Source: Dictyophora rubrovolvata (lineage: Eukaryota > Basidiomycota > Agaricomycetes > Phallales > Phallaceae). From it: DNA of 64,000 nucleotides. The translations under genes and the position numbers were made by a program. Positions 28,046 through 53,148 of this stretch are shown here, in pieces. Numbering within the stretch: the first letter of the stretch is position 1; each line of letters opens with the position of its first letter. Under the pieces are notes generated by a model. The model was not told where the DNA came from. It did no database searches and saw nothing but the letters and a program-made list of their open reading frames with translations. The DNA is taken from the NCBI GenBank assembly GCA_029959195.1, contig CP114122.1, positions 992,001 through 1,056,000 of the forward strand, written 5' to 3'.

Positions 28046-28263
28046 TGTAAGTTAATTAGTCTCTTCCCTAGTGGTTGGTAACAACAACTAGATTACCTGT
28101 AAGTTAATTAGTCTACAGGTGTGTAAGTACGTTATGTTACTATATTGATATGGTTTACTCACCTCTTCCCTAGTGGTCGGTAATGACGACTAGGGGAGAG
28201 GTGACACGCTTGTACTATGTGTATAGGGCATGATACTGGCGCTTAGTGTGCCGGATTCTAACA
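28046..28263 (+). mobile_element. Short TG..CA element, long form (218 bp)
   Basis: Starts TGTAAGTTAATTAG and ends GATTCTAACA. It shares these termini, the CTCTTCCCTAGTGG block and the GTATAGGGC..GATA.TGGCGCTTA block with the 106-bp element at 52818-52923 (opposite strand). Flanking pentamers are gtttc and atttc, a possible 5-bp target duplication with one mismatch. An internal second copy of the TGTAAGTTAATTAG start lies at about 28098, suggesting an insertion or duplication inside. It lies about 120 bp past the end of the tyrosine-recombinase pseudogene. Confidence 0.65.
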
Positions 28264-51730: not shown

Positions 51731-53148
51731 TTAAATAAATATTATAATTCCGCAAAAAAAATCTTCCCATTCGGACGGAGATGGGCCGATCTCGGATTTA
51801 GAATACGGGACATCATGATGTCTAATGAGCTTGCCAGACGAGTCCCTTCTGATTTCTTCATAAACACGAGGCAGATGAGGTTCACATCGATTCCAAATAT
51901 ATAGTTGCATATATTGAAGGGTCTTGATCCGAGAAAATTGCTTTATTATCTTCTCGGCTTCCTCTGAATGAAAGGTTGCAGACAGGTAAACATGCGCGAC
52001 TCTAGAGGATGTAGCCAAAGCCGCCACCCAGCGTTTCTAATTTTGGCAAGATAAAAAATCGTGGAATATATAAATGGGATTCAAAGGCTTACTATGTCCA
52101 TTGGAGATAATGGCCCAAGAAGATTTATTTTTCGTAGTTTCGGTGCGTTTCTCACAAAGTCCGTCCGATCAGTAGTGCTATATTCATAGGAAGAGGTGAG
52201 ATACATTTTGACTACGCGATTGAAGTAGCGGGCGTTTGTTTTGTAGTGCACTATATTGGATAAGACGTCCTCTGAAAGGAAGGACCCGCCTGTAGTGTAG
52301 GGAACGTCGAACCAAACGGAACGTAGCATCTGCAAAGAGGAGACGGATAAACGAGGCGATGAGAGGTCAGCAGTCGACACCAGGCTTTCGAGATTTGGTT
52401 GTCGTTGAAAAAAATCGGCTACGATTGTTTCCCTTTCCACCACATCAGACATATGGTTAAGAAGATGTAAGGACAATCGTCGGAGCTTTGTCCAGCTTCC
52501 GTACTTGAAGCAGATGGAGATGCAAACGGGAAGGAAGTTTGGATTATCACCAAATCCGAACTGCCAATATAATGACAGGGCACGTAAACAAATGGGCCCG
52601 TTCAACAATGCATGAATGATGTTAGTCACATCAGACAACTTCTCGGAGTTTGTAAATTTCCACGTGAATATACTTATAGTGGTCATGTACGAAAGCGCCT
52701 TGACCAACGCTGCTACAATGGAAGGGTCAATATGCGCAGAACGGTCTTGGATCTGCTGCGTCAATACAGGAGGTAGTTTAGGATGCTGGAAAAAGTCTTC
52801 GACAATAAGGTCCAGGCTGTTAGAATCTGGCGCTTTAAGCGCCAATATCACGCCCTATACGCGTAGTACAAGCGCGTCACCTCTTCGTTACCGACCACTA
52901 GGGAAGAGTCTAATTAACTTACACAGGCGACGAACGGCTCGCGCGCAGGGAGGATGAGCAACTAGATATTCCCAAACATATTGTCTGCGTATGTCCCAGC
53001 CGCGGATGTGGCAGAACGGGAGATGGTGAGGTAAAATTATTGAACCGAGAGGGCGAGAGACCAATGCTAAGGAGAGTAAATCGCGTCCTGAATCGATCCC
53101 ATATACTACTTGATCCCAAATTTCGACGGGAAGTGACTTGGGAAACAT
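51731..53148 (-). pseudogene. F-box-like protein gene interrupted by a mini-element
   Basis: Start MFPKSLPVEIWDQVVYGI, with DLLSLALVSRPLGSIILPHHL, the standard agaric F-box N-terminus. A leucine-rich C-terminal region of about 400 residues follows (KLRRLSLHLLNHM, NLESLVSTADLSSPRLS, LRKINLLGPL), then a last exon after an intron near 52030-52090, ending FCGIIIFI. F-box proteins recruit targets to SCF ubiquitin ligases. The frame is broken at 52818-52923 by a 106-bp TG..CA insertion with a 5-bp duplication (GCCTG). Without element and one GCCTG, the protein reads through as RRLDLIVEDFF. With the element present, translation meets a stop inside it. Splicing GT (52922) to AG (52817) would leave a net +5 nt. 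The gene is probably inactive unless another splice pair is used. Confidence 0.75.
52818..52923 (-). mobile_element. Short TG..CA mini-element, short form (106 bp), inside the F-box gene
   Basis: On the minus strand it starts TGTAAGTTAATTAG and ends GATTCTAACA. It is flanked on both sides by GCCTG (52924-52928 and 52813-52817). Termini and internal blocks match the 218-bp form at 28046-28263. The start includes a consensus 5' splice site (GTAAGT), and the end plus first target base gives CTAACAG, a branch-point/acceptor-like sequence. No coding capacity. Confidence 0.85.

Follow-up and report, generated by a model that had tools for sequence, protein, structure and literature searches.

A 106-bp insertion in an F-box-like gene of Dictyophora rubrovolvata is very probably a shortened solo LTR of a Ty1/Copia retrotransposon family

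FRetro129, a SMART element of grasses, has 85-bp LTRs with TGT..ACA ends, 5-bp target-site duplications (TSDs) and solo LTRs of 79–87 bp, and its relative is a Copia element with LTRs of 76 and 90 bp, as far as the account in PMC3281118 goes. The fungal Helenus TRIMs are described, in the corresponding part of PMC10886601, as having 5-bp TSDs, two LTRs with a primer-binding site (PBS) and a polypurine tract (PPT), and a tRNA-like sequence in the LTR. Here, we analyzed a 106-bp insertion in a 64,000-nt stretch of the Dictyophora rubrovolvata genome (C6:992001-1056000, hereafter the window), searching a genome of 28.24 Mb on 11 contigs. The insertion is real and of an ordinary kind, a solo LTR whose small size has an instructive cause. 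It and its family resemble Ty1/Copia in the TG..CA ends, the 5-bp TSD and the order gag, integrase, reverse transcriptase (RVT_2) in one frame, as well as in the excess of solo LTRs over two-LTR copies, 27 versus 3 among the loci examined. Unlike the usual Ty1/Copia LTR, the window LTR is down to 106 bp after losses in or close to internal repeats; it is otherwise ordinary. The likeness to the TRIMs Helenus and Ajax lies in the short LTR-derived sequences and, for Helenus, also in the 5-bp TSDs (as covered in PMC10886601). The account of FRetro129 is of a complete 292-bp non-autonomous two-LTR element and the window site holds one LTR without an internal region (PMC3281118). The original prediction had called the segment far smaller than usual LTRs; the LTR and solo LTR lengths given for the grass element in the same account are a precedent for such a size. 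In contrast to the tRNA-like LTR sequence that PMC10886601 gives for Helenus, the three LTR copies of the window family that were scanned (L001–L003) had no Rfam match up to E 5, and an origin of the LTR from an RNA gene was rejected. A literature search returned no title evidently on the 4.8-kb Copia family described below, which we do not claim to be unpublished.

The features at the insertion site are as follows.

52818..52923, plus strand (retrotransposon coding sense; TGTAAG...TTCTAACA is read on the minus strand): short-form solo LTR (106 bp) of a Ty1/Copia retrotransposon
52813..52817, no strand: target-site duplication copy, GCCTG on the minus strand
52924..52928, no strand: target-site duplication copy, GCCTG on the minus strand
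52924..53148, minus strand: upstream part of the interrupted F-box-like gene, ATG at 53148 to ...RRL, 75 codons
52084..52815, minus strand: downstream part of the same gene, an open stretch of 244 codons (LDLIVEDFF...MDIVSL)

On the minus strand, GCCTG is followed by TGTAAGTTAATTAG ... TTCTAACA and again by GCCTG, and the segment between the repeats is exactly 106 bp long, as had been predicted for a TG..CA segment with a perfect 5-bp TSD. Thus, a single LTR stands directly between two TSD copies at 52813–52928, and the internal region is absent at the site. When the 106-bp element and one GCCTG are left out, the upstream ...RRL joins DLIVEDFF... in phase, so the predicted joining of the frames was borne out; it adds no evidence of its own, however, because every clean insertion with target duplication restores the frame exactly. 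A chance arrangement is instead contradicted by the uninterrupted site in a paralog (see below) and by the other copies that the genome search, as anticipated, brought up: among 38 loci, 26 other solo copies share the ends and a 5-bp duplication, which is perfect in 25 of the 26 (selection of the solo copies required resemblance to the ends and a duplication with no more than one mismatch).

When the genome was searched at the protein level, a close paralog with 95% identity over 75 aa emerged at C6:965670, roughly 78 kb from the interrupted gene. At the DNA level, it aligns with the window copy in two blocks that share one GCCTG: 231 bp ending with this GCCTG (97% identity) and 313 bp starting with it (91%). 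Read base by base, the paralog has CGTCGCCTGGACCTT uninterrupted, with one GCCTG and an open frame. Three more paralogs, all on C2 (532240, 3086221 and 3066365), are matched on both sides in the same frame with equal listed open-frame length; all four paralogs that are matched on both sides have them in a single open frame. Judged from paralogs in one genome, the empty site with its single GCCTG argues that the 106-bp segment is an insertion made after the gene duplication, not an inherited intron. The empty site that the original prediction had proposed to look for in sister strains was therefore seen, with the difference that a paralog provided it.

To place the segment in a family, we used two queries: the segment with its flanks gave at least 69 matching pieces in the genome and a 218-bp copy at least 39. 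Of the 38 loci examined (L001–L038), 27, including the window copy, are solo LTRs with a 5-bp TSD, perfect in 26 and with one mismatch in one; the ‘TSD’ rows of L011 + and L027 +, with one mismatch each, are chance matches and were left out of the 27. Their lengths are 218 bp (n = 13), 219 bp (n = 8), 166 bp (n = 3), 210 bp (n = 1), 116 bp (n = 1) and 106 bp (n = 1). Another six loci pair up as the LTRs of three elements of 4,837, 4,837 and 3,176 bp, whose outer duplications match (GATAG, AAAAC and TATTT); the remaining five (L021, L029, L031, L037 and L038) are truncated or rearranged or lack a recognisable TSD. Two of the solo LTRs, L034 and L035, are identical and have the same TSD, and their flanks agree at 600/600 positions on one side and 376/600 on the other (compared ungapped), so that they look like one insertion copied along with its surroundings, leaving 26 independent insertions among the 27. 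The two (C2:740231 and C2:727576) lie in opposite orientations about 12.7 kb apart, an arrangement that reads as an inverted duplication that copied the insertion.

Both 4,837-bp elements have 219-bp LTRs and a single frame of 1,437 aa, which runs on the other strand from the one that reads TGTAAG. In the one full copy scanned for domains (L039, frame submitted to Pfam in four pieces), we found the Copia gag (PF14223), Pol_BBD, gag_pre-integrs, the rve integrase core, SH3_retrovirus and the Copia-type reverse transcriptase RVT_2 (PF07727, E 1e-68); a zinc knuckle was sub-threshold, and the fourth piece had no match. The LTRs of the full copies are the 219-bp form, which the 106-bp form matches piecewise, and a polypurine-like tract, GAGGGGGTG, lies upstream of the 3′ LTR. 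With a 250-aa reverse transcriptase piece as query, three close internal copies (96–100%) were detected, the next best matches being at 45–46%. Between the two LTRs of an element, we counted 0 and 2 differences in the 4,837-bp elements and 0 in the 3,176-bp one, and the family has therefore been recently active. The 3,176-bp copy (L041, C4:2006500-2013800), with identical LTRs and a shorter, 763-aa frame, appears to be a recent, internally deleted member. Priming by the anticodon arm of the initiator tRNA-Met, a known mode in Copia-type elements, is not confirmed for this Copia family: the 12-base stretch that follows the LTR (complement GGGCCCATAACC) is present at 30 places in the genome, versus 1 for a backward control, and ARAGORN reported no tRNA gene in the 5 of these 30 places that were read.

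The usual 218/219-bp LTR contains two pairs of internal direct repeats, TGTAAGTTAATTAG twice at a distance of 52 or 53 bp and a 28-bp stretch, CTCTTCCCTAG..., twice at a distance of 102 or 103 bp. Dropping the DNA between the TGTAAGTTAATTAG pair yields 166 bp, the length of L018, L020 and L026. Dropping that between the 28-bp pair yields 116 bp, and when this was done for 26 long LTRs, the products aligned to the natural 116-bp copy (C6:2334439) without a gap and with 2–15 mismatches (26 of 30 long-LTR picks were used; L001 (spurious), L006, L028 and L033 (one repeat found) were left out). One substitution and a 10-bp gap are all that separate the window copy from this 116-bp copy, and a 3′-end variant, AAAGCGCCAG, is common to the window copy, the 116-bp copy L002 (TSD ATTTC) and the 218-bp L003. 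Two decayed short copies, L031 and L037, are located on C8 and C9, L031 with a different gap in the same stretch as the 10-bp gap of the window copy. The length change probably ran from long to short, although decayed L031 and L037 would also fit an old short form from which the 218-bp form was derived. The matches listed in the genome searches, which score only the best candidates, included no two-LTR element whose LTRs are 106 or 116 bp long, and the parent of the short form was for this reason not seen.

Taken with the single LTR at the site, these data make a solo LTR of this Ty1/Copia family, left after LTR–LTR recombination, the very probable identity of the 106-bp segment. An integrase would have inserted the retrotransposon into the first exon of one duplicated F-box-like copy, with duplication of 5 bp of the target, and recombination between the two LTRs would have removed the body while one LTR stayed between the TSDs. 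We infer both steps from the structure and from established knowledge; the TG..CA ends, the 5-bp TSD and the other genomic copies agree with the integrase-type insertion of the original prediction. Its ‘very short non-autonomous element’, by contrast, gives way to a solo LTR of a 4.8-kb Copia family, shortened to 106 bp from 218/219 bp. The LTR would be short because of the two repeat pairs in its usual form: absence of the DNA between the 28-bp repeats would give 116 bp, and a further 10-bp deletion 106 bp. It had presumably reached this short form, or most of it, by the time it arrived.

A different course of events, in which a 218-bp solo LTR at this very site lost 102 bp and then 10 bp, would change the length history only and leave the solo LTR identity unaffected. 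The internal repeats make such losses easy, the 10-bp gap is absent from the 116-bp copy, and decayed L031 is gapped differently in the same stretch. Nevertheless, the 102-bp absence is common to L002 at an independent site, and L002 and the window copy share the AAAGCGCCAG variant, though 218-bp L003 has it too; since L002 shares both, a shared short parent is the simpler account of the 102-bp step, and we regard loss in place as rather unlikely overall. The 10-bp loss may well be local to the window site. Far less probable is that a TRIM/SMART- or MITE-like miniature element, non-autonomous and 106–116 bp long, moves as a unit by means of the Copia integrase. Such an element could account for the two short copies in good condition, which lie at separate sites with TSDs, have the 102-bp absence in common and differ by one substitution and 10 bp, and for the existence of two older short copies. 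Against it, a TRIM or SMART has two terminal repeats flanking a PBS and a PPT and the site has one LTR, and a lone LTR without PBS or PPT is not reverse-transcribable by itself. Moreover, the other 25 TSD-flanked solo copies are 166–219-bp LTRs of the same Copia family, and the 116-bp form is the product of loss between the internal repeats of the long LTR. On the lone LTR without PBS or PPT and the LTRs of a coding family, an independent mini-element was rejected.

We give next to no credence to an ancestral spliceosomal intron of the F-box-like gene flanked by a coincidental GCCTG repeat, even though the gene strand has GTAAGT one base into the segment, the segment ends in CTAACA followed by the G of the TSD, and 12 GT..AG combinations within the range scanned leave an open frame, among them a 96-nt GTAAGT...CCAG. 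Copies of the segment with TSDs occur at other places, and the paralogs are open across the site in 4/4 cases with both sides matched, which led us to reject this reading. Antisense to the retrotransposon, 27/27 TSD-flanked solo LTRs start with TGTAAGT (they were picked by likeness to that start). On paper, the frame would be kept by the 96-nt splice, which leaves five extra codons and an open frame, or by a 108-nt GTGTAA...ACAG splice, but this is weak evidence because so many choices in the scanned range do the same. That the solo LTR acts as a ready-made intron and that the F-box-like gene might survive the insertion is, going by these motifs, a long shot. With a solo LTR as the explanation, the locus is a clean case of a retrotransposon interrupting a duplicated gene, with the TSD, the empty site in a paralog and full elements in one genome, and the discrete lengths of one family's LTR, set by internal direct repeats, explain a puzzlingly small insertion. 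Before a very short TG..CA insertion flanked by a TSD is named as a new mini-element, one should ask whether it is a shortened solo LTR.

The interrupted open frame had been predicted to be an F-box gene; the interruption held up, while the F-box label comes from sub-threshold Pfam scores. The 75-aa N-terminal part matched no Pfam family at E 0.01 or better, its F-box-like match being at E 0.031 (14.5 bits versus a curated cut-off of 24.3, sub-threshold), and the best of three paralogs matched PF00646 at E 0.0046 (17.3 bits versus 20.5, also sub-threshold). As these scores are below the curated cut-offs, ‘F-box-like’ is a fair label. Without splicing, the frame of the gene enters the LTR for 11 codons and then meets a stop, and gene function was probably lost after the insertion. 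A donor-like GTAAGC is present near the end of the downstream part, from 52092 on the minus strand, and the last codons of this part may belong to an intron. The window copy is also without about 170 bp and several short stretches present in the paralog at C6:965670, and may differ from it functionally for reasons besides the LTR. Between window positions 52084–53148 and this paralog (C6:965670-966822), 5/222 nt differ before the LTR and 20/228 after it (Fisher p 0.003, split point chosen at the LTR), as if gene conversion or selection had reached one side only.

We found no preference of the family for coding sequence, as a frame of ≥150 aa runs across the empty site at 5/27 solo LTRs versus 19% in an unseeded random draw of 426 flank positions. 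All five frames run antisense to the retrotransposon, from which we claim no orientation bias: L032 is Gypsy-integrase-like, the coding status of L033 is doubtful, and L019 has a kinase-like frame (146 aa) in the opposite orientation (the frames of L032 and L019 were identified by reading their translations). Also from its translation, L032 (C2:237610-239711) is a solo LTR nested in a Gypsy-type-integrase-like frame. By raw count, the duplicated target begins with A or G in 22/27 solo LTRs, which hints at a possible weak purine preference there.

The window contains a second LTR of the family.

28046..28263, minus strand (retrotransposon coding sense): second same-family LTR in the window, 218 bp, TSD GTTTC/ATTTC with one mismatch, decayed mostly by C-to-T/G-to-A

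Compared with the reference copy L011, this LTR has 13 differences, 11 of them C-to-T/G-to-A. Such changes also make up 10/14 differences in L032, 13/13 in L034, 13/13 in L035 and 15/17 in L036 (in this comparison, L001 gave a spurious row, and the picks for L006 and L028 may be wrong), a pattern of decay in the family's LTRs that looks RIP-like or methylation-type.
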